NCBI RefSeq assembly: GCF_025628885.1
Contig: NZ_JAOTIF010000003.1
Span: 124,001 to 188,000, forward strand
Reading direction: 5' to 3'
DNA: 64,000 bases
DNA from: Paraflavisolibacter caeni
GTDB taxonomy: Bacteria > Bacteroidota > Bacteroidia > Chitinophagales > Chitinophagaceae
Part shown: piece by piece, positions 52,007 to 63,171 of the stretch
How the letters are laid out: each line of letters opens with the position of its first letter
Numbering within the stretch: position 1 is the stretch's first letter
Position numbers and translations under genes: made by a program
The notes under the pieces: model-generated
The model's input: the letters and a program-made list of their open reading frames with translations, nothing else
Told to the model about the DNA's origin: nothing
Database searches by the model: none

Positions 52007-53146
52007 ATGAAAAAAGTATTATTTATAGACCGCGATGGAACGCTGATCAAAGAAGCACCGCCTACCTACCAGATCGACTCCTGGGAAAAACTGGAATTTT
52101 ATCCGTATGCTTTTAAATACATGAGCCTTATTGCCGCTGAATTGGACTACGAATTAGTGATGGTAAGCAATCAGGACGGCTTAGGTACGAATACATTCCC
52201 TGAAGAAGATTTCCTGCCCATACATAAGCACATACTGGCTTCATTCGAAAATGAAGGGGTTCATTTCCAGGCAATTCATATAGATCGTAGTCATCCTTCG
52301 GACAACCTCGATACCCGCAAACCTGGTATAGGTATGTTATTGGAATACCTAAATAGCGACAAATACGATATTAAAAATTCATACGTGATAGGGGACAGGA
52401 TAACAGATGTTCAATTGGCTAAAAACCTGGGCTGCAAGGCTATTTGGTTGAACAGCAATCCCAATCTCGGGGCTTCGGAAGTAAGTCACCAGGCTGAAGA
52501 ATTGCAGCAGGTGGTTGCTTTAGAAACCACAGATTGGAAGGAAATCTATGAGTTTTTGAAATTAGGTGAAAGGGTTGTCAGGCATACCAGGTCAACAAGC
52601 GAAACCCAGATTACAGTTGAAATCAACCTGGATGGTAAAGGAAAGGCAAACATCAAAACCGGACTTGGCTTTTTTGACCATATGCTCGATCAGATTGCCC
52701 GTCACGGTATGATCGACCTGACCGTGGATGTGAAAGGTGATTTGCATATCGATGAACACCATACGGTAGAAGATACCGGCATTACATTGGGCGAAGCTTT
52801 TGCCCAGGCTCTGGGTAGCAAAAGAGGTATTGAGCGTTATGGCTTTGCATTGCCTATGGATGAAGCGGAAGCCAAAGTGTTGATTGATTTTGGCGGTCGC
52901 AACTGGATCGTTTGGAACGCCCATTTTAGCCGCGAGAAAATAGGTGATGTGCCAACAGAAATGTTCTTCCATTTCTTTAAGTCATTCTCTGACGCAGCGA
53001 AATGTAATCTGAATATCGAGTGTAGGGGAGAGAACGAGCACCATAAAATTGAAGCCATTTTCAAAGCCTTTGCTAAAGCCATCAAAATGGCTGTAAAACG
53101 TGATCCTTTCAGCAATCAGTTACCATCTACCAAAGGTCTTTTATAG
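52007..53146 (+). CDS. hisB: Bifunctional histidinol-phosphatase / imidazoleglycerol-phosphate dehydratase
   Basis: This 379-residue protein fuses two histidine biosynthesis activities. Residues 1-165 form a HAD-type phosphatase (nucleophile Asp8 in [12 protein letters not shown], then VSNQDGLG). Residues about 187-379 form the dehydratase ([51 protein letters not shown]). The fusion matches the E. coli-type HisB. It sits after a cytochrome c gene rather than in a his operon; hisH and hisA are 10 kb away on the same strand, beyond the trp operon. Confidence 0.95.
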
Positions 53147-55289: not shown

Positions 55290-55381
55290 ATTGAAAAATA
55301 TATTGATTCGTATTGTGTAGAAAGAAAAACTTTTCGGACATTTATAATAACCCTTCCTTTATAAACCAAATACCTATATAC

Positions 55382-56005
55382 ATGCGCACTCTTAATCATG
55401 CACTTTTTGCTGTGATTATCCTAGCCTTAATCTCTGGTTGCAGCAGCAATGAATCTAAAACAAAAGAGAAGGATATTTCTGCTGTAAGGCAGCATGAATC
55501 CGATGACATGGTTGCCAGGGGAGAGTACCTGGTTACGGTCAGTGGCTGTCACGATTGTCACTCGCCTAAAATTTTTAATGAAAAGGGAATGTCACTTGAT
55601 TCTACAAAGTTACTATCGGGCCATCCAAGCACAGCACAATTACCTCCCATACCTGCAATAGCTCATCAGCCAGGACAATGGATTATTATGTCACCCGACC
55701 TCACCGCATTCCTTGGCCCATGGGGAACTTCTTATACCGCTAATTTGACACCAGATTCAGCTACTGGTACAGGGACATGGAGCGAAGAAAATTTCATTAA
55801 TGCAATTCGTACAGGTAAACATATGGGACAAGAAAACGGGCGTCCAATAATGCCTCCTATGCCATGGGAATTTATAAGGAAAATGACAGATGAAGACTTA
55901 AAGTCAGTTTTCGCTTATTTGAGATCACTTCCACCAGTTAATAACCGTGTTCCAGCACCAACACCTCCTCCAGCTGCTGCTGCTGCACCAACAAAGACCC
56001 CTTAA
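55382..56005 (+). CDS. c-type cytochrome lipoprotein
   Basis: This 207-residue protein starts at the ATG at 55382, giving a lipoprotein signal (RTLNHALFAVIILALISGCS, Cys about 19). The heme motif is Cys56-His-Asp-Cys59-His60 in VSGCHDCHSPK, and a likely axial Met is in IMPPMPWEFIRKM. The C-terminus is a Pro/Ala tail (PTPPPAAAAAPT) that looks like a flexible linker. The domain resembles the diheme/alcohol-dehydrogenase-type cytochrome fold but has a single heme site. It is probably periplasmic or outer-membrane anchored; partner unknown. Confidence 0.85.
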   Translation: MRTLNHALFAVIILALISGCSSNESKTKEKDISAVRQHESDDMVARGEYLVTVSGCHDCHSPKIFNEKGMSLDSTKLLSGHPSTAQLPPIPAIAHQPGQWIIMSPDLTAFLGPWGTSYTANLTPDSATGTGTWSEENFINAIRTGKHMGQENGRPIMPPMPWEFIRKMTDEDLKSVFAYLRSLPPVNNRVPAPTPPPAAAAAPTKTP

Positions 56006-56024: not shown

Positions 56025-56055
56025 TTTGCTTAATAAAGATTCTACCCGATATTTG
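56025..56055 (+). promoter_or_regulatory. Predicted Bacteroidota-type promoter of the trp operon
   Basis: TTTG at 56025-56028 and GATATTTG at 56048-56055 are separated by exactly 19 bp and match the Bacteroidota pattern TTTG-N19-TAnnTTTG with a single mismatch. Transcription would start near 56060, only a few bases before the leader peptide ATG at 56063. Confidence 0.6.
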
Positions 56056-56062
56056 CAACTCA

Positions 56063-56110
56063 ATGAAAAAAACAAATAATCAATACTGGTGGTGGCATAC
56101 AAACTCTTAG
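56063..56110 (+). CDS. trpL: trp operon leader peptide with three consecutive Trp codons
   Basis: A 15-residue reading frame MKKTNNQYWWWHTNS ends in TAG at 56108-56110. It contains TGG TGG TGG at 56087-56095, directly upstream of trpE and of a terminator hairpin. Three adjacent Trp codons in a short peptide at this position are the hallmark of ribosome-mediated trp attenuation. The predicted promoter would put the transcript start within a few bases of its ATG, so translation may be nearly leaderless. No homology search was possible, but the combination of position, codons and hairpins makes chance unlikely. Confidence 0.85.
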   Translation: MKKTNNQYWWWHTNS

Positions 56111-56176
56111 GGGTGCTGTATTGTCATTTCTGTACTTGATGATTATATTCAGGCCCCGGCAAAACCGGGGCTTTTT
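56110..56176 (+). promoter_or_regulatory. trp attenuator: antiterminator and terminator
   Basis: The terminator is GCCCCGG (56153-56159), loop CAAAA, CCGGGGC (56165-56171) and five T. A competing antiterminator can form between GGGGTGCTG (56110-56118) and CAGGCCCC (56150-56157) with one bulged base; both structures use the same CCCC. A ribosome stalled at the Trp codons would leave 56110-56118 free, favouring readthrough. One reaching the stop at 56108-56110 would cover it, favouring termination. No separate pause hairpin is evident. Confidence 0.8.
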
Positions 56177-56196
56177 ATTTGCTTTAAATCGTAAAA

Positions 56197-57672
56197 ATGA
56201 GTTCGCAAACGCTGAAAGAAACTTCTGGTAATAAAACCTCCAATTTAAGTTCTGGAGGTAAAAAGATCATCATCAAAACGGTGGTGAAAAAAATGCTGGC
56301 AGATATGTTCACGCCAGTGGGCATTTACCTCCGGCTGCGCGACCGCTTCCGTGATACGATTCTTCTGGAAAGTGCCGATTTTCACGTGGCGGAAAACAGT
56401 TATTCTTTCATCTGTATCAACGCAATTGCCGGTATAGAAGTAAATAATGAAAGTAATATAGAATATAAACTTCCCGGCCAGGCTCCTCAGAAAACCTCGT
56501 TACAAGATGAGCGAATTGAAGACCTGTTGTGGAACTTTATGCAGCGATTCGAAGGCGAAAGCGAGAACCCTAAGGCCGCTTCTTTTGCTCAGGGATTGTA
56601 TGGCTATACCACCTTTGATGCCGTGCAATTGTTTGAAACTGTTCGTTTTAAGGGCGAAGGCAATGAACTAACCGGAATTCCAATGGCCCGCTACAGGCTG
56701 TACCAGTATGTGATTGCTATCAATCACTTCAGGGATGAATTATTGCTCTGCGAAAATGTGATCAGTGATGTTGAAAGTGAGGTAGTTGTCGTGGAGTCGT
56801 TGATCAAAAGCAAAGATGTGCCGGTCTATCCTTTTAAAACCGTTTCGGAAGAAACGTCCAATATGATGGATGCTGATTACAAGGATATGGTAAGGAAGGG
56901 AATCGCCAGTTGCTACAGGGGCGATGTATTTCAAATCGTGTTAAGCCGCCGTTATCAGCAATCATTCATTGGCGACGAGATCAATGTATACCGTGCTTTA
57001 AGAAATATCAATCCTTCTCCATATTTGTTCTTCTTTGATTACGGAGACTATAAATTAATAGGATCTTCTCCCGAATCACAGATCATTGTAAAAGATGGAA
57101 AAGCTATTGTTCATCCTATAGCGGGCACGTTTAAACGTAGCGGTGATGATGCTATAGATCAGAAAATGGCAGAAGCACTTTTAAAAGACCCTAAAGAGAA
57201 TGCCGAGCACGTAATGTTGGTCGATTTGGCCCGCAACGATCTGAGTACTGTTTGTAGCAATGTTCAGGTAACCCATTACAGGCAGGTGCACTATTATTCT
57301 CATGTAATTCATCTGGTCAGCGAGGTGACTGGCGACGTGTCCGAAAAGACCAATCCTTTCAAGGTGCTTGCAAAGACTTTTCCTGCAGGAACTTTGAGTG
57401 GAGCTCCAAAATATAAGGCCATGCAGCTGATCAACGAATTAGAACCTACACCACGTAGCTTTTATGGCGGAGCTATAGGCTTTGTTGGACTGAATGGAAA
57501 CTGCAATCATGCTATCATGATCCGTACATTCTTAAGTAAGGACAACACTTTATTTTGTCAGGCAGGCGCCGGTGTTGTTGCTGCTAGCAAGCCTGAAAGC
57601 GAATTGATGGAAGTGGAGAATAAACTAAATGCTTTGAAGAGCGCTATTAAAATGGCTGAAACTATAAGCTAG
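56197..57672 (+). CDS. trpE: Anthranilate synthase component I
   Basis: This 491-residue subunit makes anthranilate from chorismate with TrpG. The N-terminal LLESADFHVAENSYSF matches the Trp feedback-binding motif. The chorismate-using domain is clear (RGDVFQIVLSRRYQQ, SPSPE-like GSSPESQIIV, HPIAGTFKRSGDD, DLARNDLSTVC, AGTLSGAPKYKAM, GGAIGFVGLNGNCNHAIMIR). So the enzyme is probably both feedback-inhibited and under attenuation. It is the first structural gene of trpEGDCFBA, 20 bp after the attenuator's T run. Confidence 0.96.
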   Translation: MSSQTLKETSGNKTSNLSSGGKKIIIKTVVKKMLADMFTPVGIYLRLRDRFRDTILLESADFHVAENSYSFICINAIAGIEVNNESNIEYKLPGQAPQKTSLQDERIEDLLWNFMQRFEGESENPKAASFAQGLYGYTTFDAVQLFETVRFKGEGNELTGIPMARYRLYQYVIAINHFRDELLLCENVISDVESEVVVVESLIKSKDVPVYPFKTVSEETSNMMDADYKDMVRKGIASCYRGDVFQIVLSRRYQQSFIGDEINVYRALRNINPSPYLFFFDYGDYKLIGSSPESQIIVKDGKAIVHPIAGTFKRSGDDAIDQKMAEALLKDPKENAEHVMLVDLARNDLSTVCSNVQVTHYRQVHYYSHVIHLVSEVTGDVSEKTNPFKVLAKTFPAGTLSGAPKYKAMQLINELEPTPRSFYGGAIGFVGLNGNCNHAIMIRTFLSKDNTLFCQAGAGVVAASKPESELMEVENKLNALKSAIKMAETIS

Positions 57673-57720: not shown

Positions 57721-58344
57721 ATGCCTAAAATATTAGTTTTCGATAATTACGACTCATTCACCTACAACCTGGTACATATGGTGGAAAAGATTTTGGGTCA
57801 AAAGGTGGATGTGTACCGTAACGACCAGATCCCATTGGAGAGGGTTGCTGAATATGATAAGATCATTCTGTCCCCAGGTCCTGGCATTCCAAGTGAAGCT
57901 GGTTTATTATTGCCATTGATCAAAGAGTACGCAAGTAGTAAATCTATTCTGGGTGTGTGTTTAGGCCACCAGGCTATTGGCGAGGCCTTTGGCGGCAAGT
58001 TGGTAAACCTGTCAACAGTATACCATGGCATAGCTACTCCGGTAAGAGTTAGCAATCAGCAATCATCAATTGGCAATGAGATAGATCCACCCGTTACAGT
58101 TCATCATGCACCTGTAAACCTGTTCGAAGGTCTGCCGGAAGAATTTGAAGTGGGTCGCTACCATAGTTGGGTCGTAAGCAATGAAAACTTTCCGGATGAA
58201 TTGGAGATTACCGCTCTGGATGCCAACGGCCTCATTATGGCCTTACGCCATAAAACATATGATGTCCAGGGCGTACAGTTCCATCCCGAAAGTGTTTTAA
58301 CACCTCAAGGCGAAGTCATTTTAAGGAATTGGTTAAAAAACTGA
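57721..58344 (+). CDS. trpG: Anthranilate synthase component II (glutamine amidotransferase)
   Basis: This 207-residue subunit supplies ammonia from glutamine to TrpE. The catalytic Cys is in ILGVCLGHQAIGEAFGG; His and Glu are in GVQFHPESVLTP; the N-terminus ILVFDNYDSFTYNLVHMVE is standard. Between ATPVRV and NLFEGLPEEFEVGRYHSW there are about 15-18 residues more than usual. Their DNA begins with four 7-bp repeat units (58051-58078) encoding SNQQSSIGNE. The rest is intact, so the protein should be functional. Confidence 0.95.
   Translation: MPKILVFDNYDSFTYNLVHMVEKILGQKVDVYRNDQIPLERVAEYDKIILSPGPGIPSEAGLLLPLIKEYASSKSILGVCLGHQAIGEAFGGKLVNLSTVYHGIATPVRVSNQQSSIGNEIDPPVTVHHAPVNLFEGLPEEFEVGRYHSWVVSNENFPDELEITALDANGLIMALRHKTYDVQGVQFHPESVLTPQGEVILRNWLKN
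58051..58078. repeat. 7-bp tandem repeat inside trpG
   Basis: AGCAATC, AGCAATC, ATCAATT and GGCAATG stand in tandem within the coding sequence, in a surface-loop position where the family normally has few residues. It resembles the 7-bp arrays between genes elsewhere in this window. Confidence 0.6.
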
Positions 58345-58419: not shown

Positions 58420-59412
58420 ATGAAAAAAATACTTCAGTTTTTATTTGAATATAAAACGTTAAGTCAATCCCAGGCCAAAGAGGTCATCATCAATTTGGCA
58501 AAAGGTCTCTATAACGATAGCGAAATAGCATCCTTTATCACTGTCTATTTAATGCGCAGCATTACTATAGACGAACTCCACGGATTTCGTGATGGCTTAT
58601 TGCAGCTTTGTGTTCCGGTTGACCTCAACGGCCACGAAGTAATGGACATTGTTGGGACTGGTGGCGATGGAAAGAACACATTCAATATTTCAACCCTTGC
58701 CTGTTTCATCGTGGCAGGCGCAGGTCAAAAAGTTGCCAAGCATGGCAACTATGGCGCTACCTCTGTGAGTGGGGCATCCAATGTAATGGAGCAAATAGGC
58801 TATAAATTCAAGAACGATAATGATCGCTTGAAAGCAGAAATTGAAGAAGCCAATATCTGCTTCCTGCATGCCCCCATGTTCCATCCGGCCATGAAAATGG
58901 TGGCTGGTATTAGAAAGAACTTAGGACTGCGCACCTTCTTTAATATGCTGGGGCCAATGATCAATCCGGCTTCTCCTTCCTACCAATTAGTAGGTGTGTA
59001 CAATCTGGAAATGGCTCGCATTTACAACTACCTTTTACAACAAACAGGTAAGCCATTTACAATCATAAACAGTTTAGACGGATATGATGAAATTTCGCTG
59101 ACCAACGATACCAAAGTCATTACAAACCGTGGCGAGCGGGTAATGACGCCAATTGAATTAGGCAAAAGAATGGTTAGTGCAGAAGATATTTATGGGGGTA
59201 ATACAGTAGATGAAGCTGCTGCGATTTTCAAAAAGATCATCAAAGGCGAAGGTACCTGGGCTCAGAATGCTGTCGTTTTAGCTAATGCAGCTATGGCTTT
59301 ACATTGTACTGGTAATTATGCGTCTTACGAAGATTCGTATAATGCAGCCATCGAAAGCCTTGAAAGCGGTAGTGCTTACCAATGTTTACAGAAATTAATT
59401 GCATTACAGTAA
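58420..59412 (+). CDS. trpD: Anthranilate phosphoribosyltransferase
   Basis: This 330-residue enzyme joins anthranilate to PRPP. The PRPP-binding GTGGDGKNTFNIST and the anthranilate-site segments KHGNYGATSVSGASNVMEQ, FLHAPMFHPAMK and RTFFNMLGPMINPA are all present. It is a stand-alone TrpD, not fused to TrpG. It starts 75 bp after trpG and is followed by a repeat-bearing spacer before trpC. Confidence 0.96.
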   Translation: MKKILQFLFEYKTLSQSQAKEVIINLAKGLYNDSEIASFITVYLMRSITIDELHGFRDGLLQLCVPVDLNGHEVMDIVGTGGDGKNTFNISTLACFIVAGAGQKVAKHGNYGATSVSGASNVMEQIGYKFKNDNDRLKAEIEEANICFLHAPMFHPAMKMVAGIRKNLGLRTFFNMLGPMINPASPSYQLVGVYNLEMARIYNYLLQQTGKPFTIINSLDGYDEISLTNDTKVITNRGERVMTPIELGKRMVSAEDIYGGNTVDEAAAIFKKIIKGEGTWAQNAVVLANAAMALHCTGNYASYEDSYNAAIESLESGSAYQCLQKLIALQ

Positions 59413-59431
59413 CAACTGAAATATAACAATT

Positions 59432-59466
59432 ATTCACCATTGACCATTCACCTTTCACCATTCACG
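59432..59466. repeat. Five 7-bp repeat units between trpD and trpC
   Basis: ATTCACC, ATTGACC, ATTCACC, TTTCACC and ATTCACG run in unbroken phase over 35 bp, inside the trp operon and just before the trpC start. Confidence 0.85.
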
Positions 59467-59481
59467 ACCGCACCAAATACC

Positions 59482-60288
59482 ATGAACATCCTCGATAAAA
59501 TAATAGCACAGAAAAGAATTGAAGTTGCCCAGCGTAAGGCAGAAGTAACCATTGCGGAATTAGAAAAAGGTCCTTTCTTCAAGAGTGAGACCTATTCGCT
59601 CAAGGCCGCTTTATTGGACAATACGAAAACTGGCATTATCGCTGAGTACAAAAGAAAGTCTCCTTCAAAAGGAATTATCAACGACAAAGCCACTATTGAA
59701 GAAGTAACAATGGCTTATGCTACGTATGGCGCTTCCGGAATTTCAGTGCTTACAGATCATGAATTTTTCGGTGGTTCTTTAGCCGACCTTCAGAAAGCGG
59801 CAATTATCAACAAAATACCACTGTTGCGGAAAGACTTTATGATCGATGAATACCAGTTGCTTGAGGCAAAGGCTTATGGTGCTTCTGTGATATTATTGAT
59901 CGCCGCTAACTTGTCGGTTGGTGAGGTTAAAAGTTTGGCCAGCGCTGCAAAGAACCTGGGATTGGAAGTGTTGCTGGAAATACATAATGAACAGGAATTG
60001 GAACACATCTGCGATGAGGTAGACCTGGTAGGTGTGAACAATCGTAACCTGAAAACTTTTGAGGTAAGCCTCGATACCTCAGTTCAACTGAGTAATCTGA
60101 TTCCATTGGATAAACTGAAAATATCCGAAAGCGGTATTCATAAAGTAGAAGACATCCATTATTTGGAGCAATATGGTTTCAAAGGATTCTTGATAGGAGA
60201 AAATTTCATGAAGCAGGAAGTTCCCGGTGAAGCCTTCAGGTCTTTTGCCGAAGAGCTGAAAAACTACAAGGTTTCGAAAACTTCATAG
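59482..60288 (+). CDS. trpC: Indole-3-glycerol-phosphate synthase
   Basis: This 268-residue TIM-barrel enzyme closes the indole ring. The ATG at 59482 (NILDKIIAQKRIEVAQRKAE) is preferred over the TTG at 59440, which lies in the repeat array. Family motifs are IIAEYKRKSPSKGII, GASGISVLTDHEFFGGS, PLLRKDFMIDEYQLLEA, VGVNNRNLKTFEV and ISESGIH. It is not fused to TrpF, which is the next gene. Confidence 0.96.
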   Translation: MNILDKIIAQKRIEVAQRKAEVTIAELEKGPFFKSETYSLKAALLDNTKTGIIAEYKRKSPSKGIINDKATIEEVTMAYATYGASGISVLTDHEFFGGSLADLQKAAIINKIPLLRKDFMIDEYQLLEAKAYGASVILLIAANLSVGEVKSLASAAKNLGLEVLLEIHNEQELEHICDEVDLVGVNNRNLKTFEVSLDTSVQLSNLIPLDKLKISESGIHKVEDIHYLEQYGFKGFLIGENFMKQEVPGEAFRSFAEELKNYKVSKTS

Positions 60289-60346: not shown

Positions 60347-60991
60347 ATGCGAGTAAAAGTTTGCGGCATGACACAGACAGAACAAGTGAACGAGCTGGCT
60401 GGTATGGGCGTCGAGTTTGCCGGTTTTATTTTTTATCATAAAAGTCCCCGGTATGTGCTCAATCACATGACCACGGCACAGGTAAGAAAAATAAATAACA
60501 TCAACAAGGTTGGCGTATTTGTGAATACTCCACTTGAAGAAGTAATGCGTATTGTTGATGAATGCCGTTTGCATATGGTTCAGCTGCATGGCGACGAGCC
60601 ACCTAAATATTGCGAGCGCATTGCAGACTATATTTCTGTAGTAAAGGCTTTCCGGTTAAGTGATAATGACAGCATTGAATGGATGACCCGCCCTTACCTG
60701 GATGTATGTGATATGTTCATGTTCGATACGCTGGGTGCAGGCTATGGTGGCACCGGAAAGAAATTCGACTGGAGCATTTTAAAGGATGTCTACATGCCAA
60801 AGCCTTTCTTTCTTAGTGGGGGCATCGAACCAGGAGATGAAGAAAAATTGCATGAGTTTACACACGAACCCATAGCTAAACATTTATTTTCTATTGATAT
60901 CAATAGCAAGTTTGAAGTGAGCCCGGGAGTGAAGGACCTGAAAAAAGTAAAGATTTTTGTAGATCAAGTTCATAATAATAATTCCAAATAA
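60347..60991 (+). CDS. trpF: Phosphoribosylanthranilate isomerase
   Basis: This 214-residue enzyme carries out the step before TrpC. Conserved parts are RVKVCGMTQTEQV (catalytic Cys), GFIFYHKSPRYV, VGVFVNTP, HMVQLHGDEPP, FDTLGAGYGGTGKKFDW (catalytic Asp) and PFFLSGGIEPGDE. It is 58 bp after trpC and 21 bp before trpB. Confidence 0.95.
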   Translation: MRVKVCGMTQTEQVNELAGMGVEFAGFIFYHKSPRYVLNHMTTAQVRKINNINKVGVFVNTPLEEVMRIVDECRLHMVQLHGDEPPKYCERIADYISVVKAFRLSDNDSIEWMTRPYLDVCDMFMFDTLGAGYGGTGKKFDWSILKDVYMPKPFFLSGGIEPGDEEKLHEFTHEPIAKHLFSIDINSKFEVSPGVKDLKKVKIFVDQVHNNNSK

Positions 60992-61012: not shown

Positions 61013-62230
61013 ATGGATCATAAAGTTTCATATCAGCGACCCAACGAGCAAGGCTACTACGGTAGGTTTGGTGGTGCGTTCATTCCTGAGATGCTGCACC
61101 CCAATGTAAAAGAACTTCAGGAACGGTATCTTGACATCATGTATGATGCTGCTTTCCAAAAAGAATATACAGAACTGCTCCGGGATTATGTTGGACGCCC
61201 TACTCCGCTCTATTTTGCGAAACGTCTGAGTGCACAATACAATACCAATATTTATCTGAAGCGGGAAGATCTATGTCATACAGGCGCCCACAAAGTGAAC
61301 AATACTGTTGGGCAGATCTTATTGGCGCAACGCCTGGGCAAAAAACGTATCATTGCTGAAACTGGTGCTGGACAGCATGGTGTGGCAACAGCTACAGTTT
61401 GTGCACTGAAAGGAATGGAGTGCATTGTATATATGGGTGAAAAAGATATTGAACGCCAGGCTCCTAATGTTGCCCGCATGAAGATGCTGGGTGCAACAGT
61501 GATTCCTGCTACCAGTGGTAGTAAAACCCTGAAAGATGCTACGAATGAAGCGATTCGCGACTGGATCAATAATCCTACGGATACGCATTATATCATTGGA
61601 AGTGTTGTAGGGCCGCATCCTTATCCCGATATGGTCGCTCGTTTTCAGAGTATTATTTCTGAGGAAACGCGCTGGCAGTTAAAAACCAAAACCGGGAGTG
61701 AGTTGCCCGATTATGTAATGGCATGTGTAGGTGGTGGTAGTAATGCTGCCGGGGCATTTTATAATTTCCTTGATGAACCTACGGTGAAAATTGTGGCTGT
61801 TGAGGCTGGGGGCATGGGCATAGAAAGCGGCATGAGTGCTGCTACTACCCGTCTTGGCAAACCTGGTATTCTGCACGGTAGCAAAAGCCTGGTTATGCAA
61901 ACTGAAGATGGACAGGTTGTAGAACCACATAGTATTTCTGCAGGCTTGGATTATCCGGGTATCGGACCTTTACATGCACACCTTTTTGATAGTGGTCGTG
62001 GTACTTTCTTACATGCTACTGATGATGAAGCTTTAGAAGCAGCTTTCCAGCTGGCCAAGTTAGAAGGTATTATTCCAGCACTGGAATCTTCTCATGCGCT
62101 GTCTGCATTAAAGCAGATACAGTTTAAGCAAAATGAAGTTGTGGTTGTTTGCTTATCTGGCCGTGGCGATAAGGACCTGGCTACTTATATGAAAGCAATG
62201 GGTGTGCATTCAAACGAAGTGACCGGTTAG
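61013..62230 (+). CDS. trpB: Tryptophan synthase beta chain
   Basis: This 405-residue PLP enzyme joins indole and serine. The PLP Lys is in [11 protein letters not shown], the substrate loop in [15 protein letters not shown], and the phosphate-binding loop in [12 protein letters not shown]. The N-terminus [15 protein letters not shown] and C-terminal [17 protein letters not shown] indicate the TrpB1 type that partners with TrpA. All family landmarks are intact. Confidence 0.97.
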
Positions 62231-62290: not shown

Positions 62291-63088
62291 ATGAGCCGAA
62301 TACAAGAACTATTCAATCGGAAGAACAAAAAAATACTGAATGTTTATTGCACCGCGGGTTATCCGGAATTAGACAGTACGCTGGAAGTGATGAAAGCCTT
62401 ACAGGATTCTGGTGCAGACTTGATTGAACTCGGTATGCCTTATAGCGATCCTTTAGCCGATGGTCCAATTATTCAGGAAAGCAGTAGCATTGCGCTGAAA
62501 AATGGCATGACCATTTCAAGACTGTTCAAGCAGTTAAAAGATTTTCGTACTGACGCCGCTGCCGGTGGTGCTGGCATTCACGTGCCTGTGGTCCTGATGG
62601 GCTATCTAAATCCTATATTACAATATGGCTTTGAAAGATTCTGTGCTGACGCTGAAGCAGTAGGAATTGATGGCCTTATACTTCCCGACTTACCGATTTA
62701 CGAGTTTGAGACGGAATATGGCGAGATTATAAAGAAGCATAACCTTGATTTTGTTTTTCTGGTAACACCAGAAACATCCGCAGAAAGGATCAAAAAGCTG
62801 GATAGCTTGAGTTCTGGATTTTTATATGCAGTTTCATCCTCTTCAACAACCGGGAAGAACAAGGAGTTTGCATCCGCAGAGCAGTACCTGCAAAAACTGG
62901 CTTCTTTGAATTTAAAGAACCCGGTATTGGTTGGGTTTGGTATTAGGGACAGGGAAACTTTTGAAGCTGCTTGCAAACATACGAATGGTGCAATAATTGG
63001 TAGTGCTTACATCAAAGCTTTGAGTAACAGTTCAAATGTTCAGGAAGCTACAAAAGAATTTTTGGAAAGCATTTTAACTGAAGAGTGA
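62291..63088 (+). CDS. trpA: Tryptophan synthase alpha chain
   Basis: This 265-residue subunit cleaves indole-3-glycerol phosphate. The catalytic Glu is in DLIELGMPYSDPLADGP, and the catalytic Asp region is IDGLILPDLPIYE. VLMGYLNPILQYG and PVLVGFGIRDRE are also typical. Before VVLMGYLNP there is a short extra Gly/Ala stretch (DAAAGGAGIHVP), about eight residues beyond what I expect. It is the last gene of the trp operon. Confidence 0.96.
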   Translation: MSRIQELFNRKNKKILNVYCTAGYPELDSTLEVMKALQDSGADLIELGMPYSDPLADGPIIQESSSIALKNGMTISRLFKQLKDFRTDAAAGGAGIHVPVVLMGYLNPILQYGFERFCADAEAVGIDGLILPDLPIYEFETEYGEIIKKHNLDFVFLVTPETSAERIKKLDSLSSGFLYAVSSSSTTGKNKEFASAEQYLQKLASLNLKNPVLVGFGIRDRETFEAACKHTNGAIIGSAYIKALSNSSNVQEATKEFLESILTEE

Positions 63089-63098
63089 CGAAAAAATG

Positions 63099-63171
63099 AG
63101 CGGAAGACGGGACTCGAACCCGCTACCTACAGCTTGGGAAGCTGTCGCTCTACCAGGTGAGCTACTTCCGC
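63099..63171 (-). tRNA. tRNA-Gly (anticodon CCC)
   Basis: The minus strand folds as a full cloverleaf of 73 nt: acceptor GCGGAAG / CTTCCGC with discriminator U, D arm GCTC / GAGC, anticodon stem ACAGC / GCTGT with loop TTCCCAA, and T arm GCGGG / CCCGT with TTCGAGT. The loop places CCC at positions 34-36, reading the glycine codon GGG. CCA is not encoded. It lies between trpA and hisH, opposite in direction. Confidence 0.95.

Follow-up and report, generated by a model that had tools for sequence, protein, structure and literature searches.

A predicted ribosome-mediated trp attenuator with a near-leaderless start precedes trpEGDCFBA in Paraflavisolibacter caeni

The bacterium Paraflavisolibacter caeni (Bacteroidota; Chitinophagaceae) carries its trp genes in the order trpEGDCFBA within the 64,000-nucleotide stretch of DNA analysed here, the whole of which is designated as the window. 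A leader region at 56025-56177 lies directly 5' of this operon (Table 1). The gene at 55313-56005 is located upstream on the same strand as the leader and ends about 145 nt 5' of the terminator. At the other end of the operon, a tRNA-Gly (CCC) gene occupies 63098-63171 on the minus strand between trpA and a hisH gene. A bifunctional hisB is found before the leader, at 52007-53146.

Table 1. Positions of the trp genes and of the leader features in the window, with the basis of each assignment
Feature	Position	Strand	Basis
-33 promoter element TTTG	56025..56028	+	sequence; scan of relatives
-7 promoter element GATATTTG (consensus of relatives CATATTTG)	56048..56055	+	sequence and cited flavobacterial box
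Predicted transcription start (5' UTR 2-3 nt)	56060..56061	+	inferred from -7 box spacing in excerpts of PMC9723704 and PMC6847099
Leader peptide ORF, MKKTNNQYWWWHTNS and stop	56063..56110	+	15 sense codons; frame, conservation in relatives, chance simulation
Predicted 1:2 pause / anti-antiterminator hairpin (core arms 56091-56101 and 56117-56128)	56079..56140	+	folds, Trp_leader alignment, consensus
Strand 2, 5' antiterminator arm GGGGTGCTG	56110..56118	+	between-group pairing test and window pairing model
Strand 3, 3' antiterminator arm CAGGCCCC	56150..56157	+	common to antiterminator and terminator
Intrinsic terminator (3:4 hairpin 56151-56173 and T tract)	56151..56177	+	terminator prediction; pairing in relatives
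trpE, first structural gene	56197..57672	+	best family TIGR00564, score below family cut-off; trpG and trpD downstream
trpG	57721..58344	+	TIGR00566 above cut-off
trpD	58420..59412	+	TIGR01245 above cut-off
trpC	59440..60288	+	NF001377 above cut-off
trpF	60347..60991	+	best family NF002298, below cut-off
trpB	61013..62230	+	TIGR00263 above cut-off
trpA	62291..63088	+	TIGR00262 above cut-off

The leader frame opens with ATG at 56063-56065, carries TGG TGG TGG in tandem at 56087-56095 and closes with TAG at 56108-56110. An initial annotation had described a 15-codon frame with three Trp codons, a terminator and a competing antiterminator just before trpE; all of these are found at 56063-56177, and the probability of their chance occurrence is close to zero. 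When both strands were scanned, a frame with a Trp run followed by a terminator occurred once in the 64 kb window, and in 60 simulated windows (first-order Markov) such combinations numbered 0 per 64 kb when three Trp codons were required and 0.017 per 64 kb when two or more sufficed. The RNA fold of 56060-56180 had a z score of -4.33, and 0 of 200 shuffles were as stable. The contact claimed between the stop codon and strand 2 also exists in the window, where the GGGG of strand 2 lies at 56110-56113 and its first G is the last base of the stop codon. The earlier observation of a trp attenuator at 56025-56177 is thus confirmed.

To examine relatives, we used trpE loci from the own genome and 57 related genomes, plus 80 named genome contigs that include Chitinophagaceae, Terrimonas, Flavihumibacter, Niastella and Chitinophaga. 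These gave 110 loci including the own one; L107 has no upstream DNA and was excluded throughout, leaving 109 testable loci. A script scan detected a Trp leader and a terminator 5' of trpE in 105 of the 109, own included. Relatives thus retain the Trp codons and the terminator, and the outcome that had been named as evidence against an attenuator, their loss in relatives, is not what is seen. Among the 105 leaders, 94 have a WWW run, 99 have at least two Trp codons and six have one. L027, with an unconvincing leader, and L030, with a doubtful WW frame, were not counted as leaders, while L025 and L110 have WWW frames but lacked a terminator scoring above the threshold of the script. One leader stretch occurs twice among the 105, which leaves 104 distinct ones, and L034, whose contig begins within the promoter, was left out of the spacing, promoter-box, ribosome-simulation, sister-pair and G-run counts. 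The leaders with a single Trp codon (L090, L092, L097, L099, L101 and L102; NGWH or TGWH) still have the G-run, the terminator and, at 5 nt from the ATG, a TTTG box. In L018, L057 and L063, the terminator is located 231-351 nt before the aligned trpE start, with other sequence in between.

The leader extends beyond the family. A draw across the phylum gave 136 genomes with a match, from which 40 upstream stretches were chosen by the analyst. All 27 loci from the same class (26) or order (1) outside the family have a Trp leader and terminator, 25 with a Trp run and two with W-x-W; among the 13 loci fetched from other classes, seven have a Trp run, two have alternating Trp codons and four have nothing convincing. 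A covariance model was built from an alignment of 80 of the 104 leaders, from which mostly deviant leaders were omitted, so that the consensus leans to the typical form. It matched 111 of 195 family genomes at E <= 1e-8, at least 11 of which (own included) had contributed to the model; 144 matched at E <= 0.001, and the weaker matches were taken for chance and not counted. A class-wide search with the model (71 of 197 genomes at E <= 0.001) was not used, as the listed matches were mostly single and weak (1e-5 to 1e-3) and were taken for chance.

The position of the stop codon varies among these leaders. In 68 of the 86 loci with a placeable G-run (of 93 WWW loci), the G-run of strand 2 begins 8-9 nt before the stop codon, and the stop codon therefore lies within strand 2; in 8 of the 86, as in the window, the first base of the stop codon precedes the start of the G-run by 1-4 nt. 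The exact contact seen in the window is not shared generally. Leader peptides of the family often terminate in RGL or GVL, and the frame in the window ends earlier relative to the G-run.

The putative promoter reads TTTG-19-GATATTTG, ends at 56055 and is of the Bacteroidota type. Excerpts of two studies give the flavobacterial sigma-A box as TAnnTTTG at -12 to -5 (PMC9723704) and place the box 4-5 nt before the transcript start (PMC6847099), and by either spacing the transcript would start 2-3 nt before the leader ATG. In 54 of 104 leaders, the TTTG closest to the leader ATG is 7 nt away, and in 95 it is 4-9 nt away, as counted with a script whose choice of start codon included a bonus for a nearby TTTG box. 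In an unbiased recount confined to the 67 WWW loci (of 93) with exactly one in-frame ATG, the box was 4-9 nt from the ATG in 61; among the other ATGs of these regions, taken as background, 76 of 1121 had a box at 3-9 nt. A matrix of the -7 box, trained on 53 of the same leaders that it scored, placed the box 3-10 nt 5' of the leader ATG in 94 of 104 loci and 5' of the trpE ATG in 0 of 81; in shuffled upstream DNA, the best matrix site fell at 3-10 nt in 12% of cases, always with a score below the real median. The -33 TTTG was found upstream of the -7 box in 86 of 104 leaders, with a spacer of 19-20 nt in 79 of the 86, a count for which the best of spacers 16-24 was taken and which has no shuffle baseline. 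The near-leaderless start, as deduced from promoter motif and spacing, is conserved in the relatives. Other Bacteroidia vary, the nearest TTTG being 16-20 nt from the ATG in 8 of 14 loci of family code f24. Such conserved closeness of promoter and leader ATG is unusual for the phylum: according to passages of the respective papers, about 3.7% of 5' UTRs in Bacteroides thetaiotaomicron measure less than 10 nt (PMC7366714), and in F. johnsoniae 87% of the predicted leaders are longer than 10 nt (PMC6847099). In F. psychrophilum, 5.5% of the mRNAs examined are leaderless, as stated in part of PMC9723704.

The initial annotation had seen no separate pause hairpin, a claim that did not stand. A hairpin of the 1:2 type is predicted in the window, in the alignment to the Trp_leader model and in the RNAalifold consensus of 80 relatives. 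In this predicted hairpin, Trp codons 2-3 and a portion of the two codons that follow pair with the end of strand 2 and bases beyond; GGGT of strand 2 is also held opposite ACTC. Covariation hardly tests this hairpin because its 5' arm is almost invariant in the alignment of 80 relatives, where 3 of the 13 pairs show double changes, in one to three sequences.

We simulated the effect of ribosome position, with the front edge of the ribosome assumed to lie 12 nt past the first base of the A-site codon. When the RNA of the window leader extended up to strand 3, the mean 2:3 pairing probability over eight named pairs was 0.01 without a ribosome and 0.81 with a ribosome on Trp codon 1, 2 or 3, and a ribosome at the stop codon covered strand 2. 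In the complete leader, 3:4 pairing was 0.98-0.99 even with a stalled ribosome; since the terminator is more stable there despite the stall, the switch must be kinetic and depend on order in time. Among the relatives, 2:3 formed with the simulated ribosome on Trp codon 1 in 59 of 104, on codon 2 in 53 of 98 and on codon 3 in 50 of 93, compared with 16 of 104 without a ribosome and 15 of 104 with a ribosome at the stop codon. Simulated ribosome position gives the classic switch in the window but is reproduced in only part of the relatives. Under this simple ribosome model, nearly half of the 104 leaders do not switch; the direction is right, but the behaviour is far from universal.

Covariation of the stems, which had been proposed as a check, was borne out in part: it is seen for 3:4 and, between groups, for 2:3, but not for 2:3 in sister pairs, and 1:2 offers few double changes. 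For 3:4, which served as the control, a test of 50 sister pairs favoured the own partner in 46 pairs and the exchanged one in three, with one tie. For 2:3, we compared 19 groups, of which 15 were family codes and four were subgroups drawn by hand within the window's family. The mean energy with the own strand 3 was -13.0, compared with -9.0 (sd 0.73) after exchange, and 0 of 300 exchanges reached the own value. This test covered 49 loci, comprising 35 of the 40 wider loci and 14 family and order loci; of the five wider loci left out, two have no leader at all and three lack a convincing Trp run. In 30 of the 49 loci, the own strand 3 was better than the mean of those from other groups, and in 34 it was better than shuffles. 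The f24 loci, with 2:3 pairing as defined here, were no better than shuffles. The same test in 50 close sister pairs gave 20 with the own partner better, 19 with the exchanged one better and 11 ties, with two negative controls at 26 vs 19 and 20 vs 20; there is no fine-scale covariation of 2:3 beyond the GGGG:CCCC core. A within-family permutation test (0 of 5000; own better than the cross mean in 70 of 105) was set aside, as it is confounded by relatedness and the sister pairs do not bear it out. The claim of an antiterminator therefore rests on the between-group test. The Trp leaders of L143, L144 and L148, from other classes of the phylum, differ in sequence and have very strong predicted 2:3 pairing, at -27 to -28 kcal/mol.

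Several features characteristic of a ribosome-mediated attenuator are thus found together at this locus. A tandem-Trp frame, predicted from the sequence to be translated, precedes the first trp gene; an intrinsic terminator lies between this frame and trpE; a competing antiterminator has one strand in common with the terminator, as indicated by the between-group and window tests, though not by the sister pairs; and a pause / anti-antiterminator hairpin is predicted over the Trp codons. These features support a reading of the leader as a trp attenuator that is ribosome-mediated and has a predicted near-leaderless start. We consider it very probable that such an attenuator controls trpEGDCFBA, and it would probably turn the trp genes off when tryptophan is plentiful. 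The analysis shows the parts, their conservation, the spacing of promoter and ATG and the predicted pairing; from these, we deduce where transcription starts, that the peptide is translated, how the leader responds to Trp and in what order the events occur.

According to this model, RNA polymerase would start 2-3 nt before the leader ATG, and a ribosome would load once the RNA emerges. With ample charged tRNA-Trp, the ribosome would reach the stop codon and cover strand 2, leaving strand 3 free to pair with strand 4, and transcription would terminate at about 56177. When charged tRNA-Trp is scarce, the ribosome would halt on one of the three Trp codons, thereby breaking 1:2 and leaving strand 2 free; strands 2 and 3 would then pair before strand 4 is made, and the polymerase would continue into trpE. 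In an RNA carrying no ribosome, the 1:2 hairpin would sequester strand 2 and the terminator would form. If true, this would be a simple case of transcription-translation coupling without Shine-Dalgarno initiation.

The nascent peptide might take part in this attenuation, and the residue that would be involved is Asn at the third codon before the Trp run (codon -3; 56078-56080 in the window), which could aid the stall or release. Asn occupies this position in 82 of 94 WWW leaders (58 AAT and 24 AAC), while Lys occurs there in none of the 94 and is nearly as common as Asn further upstream in the leaders (64 Asn, 58 Lys; a Fisher test that ignores relatedness). On a TrpE tree of 88 loci, codon -3 underwent 7 amino-acid changes and 16 switches between AAT and AAC, compared with 53, 52, 38 and 39 amino-acid changes at codons -5, -4, -2 and -1, respectively. 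The third base of the Asn codon has a pairing probability of 0.58, like that of unconserved neighbours. However, where this base is predicted to be paired (P > 0.3), U faces A or G and C faces G in 58 of 62 loci, which is compatible with an RNA reason, and Asn is absent from 12 of the 94 WWW leaders; of 32 wider loci, 17 have it and 15 do not. Asn thus appears to be kept as an amino acid, and its cause may still lie in the RNA; we consider a role of the nascent peptide unlikely. It is equally doubtful that Chitinophagaceae and many other Bacteroidia share a distinct attenuator design for ribosomes without Shine-Dalgarno pairing, in which the frame would be kept within 0-5 nt of the transcript start, allowing immediate loading of the first ribosome, and a selected Asn would tune the stall via the nascent chain. 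Conservation of the peptide was rejected for His-Thr-Asn after the Trp run, as its nearly fixed third bases (CAT 77 of 82, ACA 65 of 69, AAC 68 of 70) point to an RNA constraint; on the tree, these codons underwent 10, 19 and 21 amino-acid changes vs 2, 4 and 1 synonymous ones.

TrpR, TRAP and T-box systems control trp genes in other phyla, and the leader might accordingly be sensed directly by a protein or an uncharged tRNA (a TrpR operator, TRAP or a T-box) instead of by a ribosome. Searches of the own genome for TrpR, TRAP and T-box each gave 0 matches at E <= 0.001, while control genomes matched, and the frame that carries the Trp run is conserved; we therefore give this possibility very little credence. 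It is also highly improbable that the hairpin merely terminates the upstream gene, whose strand and distance would suit such a role, and that the short Trp frame is there by chance, given the recurrence of Trp leader and hairpin at 105 of 109 loci and the simulated windows described above.

At Rfam gathering scores, only a tRNA was detected in the window. The Rfam model for the phylum is Bacteroid-trp (RF01692, 'Bacteroidete tryptophan peptide leader RNA'), which an excerpt of PMC2864571 lists for Bacteroidetes. The window leader does not reach its gathering score of 49, and the window region gave no match to it even at E <= 10, nor did 15 family loci at E <= 0.05. With stricter filters, 0 of 58 genomes (own and 57 relatives) matched, while a Bacteroides control did. 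Hits to RF01692 above the cut-off came from 11 of the 40 wider trpE-upstream loci, all of family code f24, whose leader peptides differ from that of the window and are typically LNNTWWW.NLRQTS. Passages of PMC9723704 report strong clues of leader-peptide attenuation before amino-acid operons in F. psychrophilum, which also figures in the documentation of attenuation in Bacteroidota in the part of PMC6414381 consulted. Literature searches found no trp attenuator named in Chitinophagaceae among the matches listed; the survey of Lopatovskaya et al. (2010), cited in PMC4833913, may cover Bacteroidetes.

Trp attenuators in Bacteroidota and a leaderless trpL in Sinorhizobium are already known. As far as the searches show, the set of leaders missed by RF01692, the conserved spacing of promoter and ATG and the Asn three codons before the Trp run are new. 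They extend a documented type of switch to a large family that the Bacteroidetes model of Rfam misses, with its parts named and testable. The enterobacterial trpL model, Trp_leader (RF00513), aligns over its full length to the window leader, and the Trp codons, the 1:2 hairpin and the terminator follow in order. The match scored 33.9 bits, short of the gathering score of 41, with E 2.7e-5 when 401 bases were searched; at E <= 0.05, the model detects 2 of the 15 family loci, own included. The window leader differs from RF00513 in its near-leaderless start. A leaderless leader ORF of 14 codons forms part of the trpL attenuator of Sinorhizobium meliloti, as described in excerpts of PMC7298713 and PMC10117765; according to these, the S. 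meliloti RNA begins at the ATG itself, whereas that of the window would begin 2-3 nt before it. S. meliloti belongs to another phylum, and the promoter of the window leader is of the Bacteroidota type.
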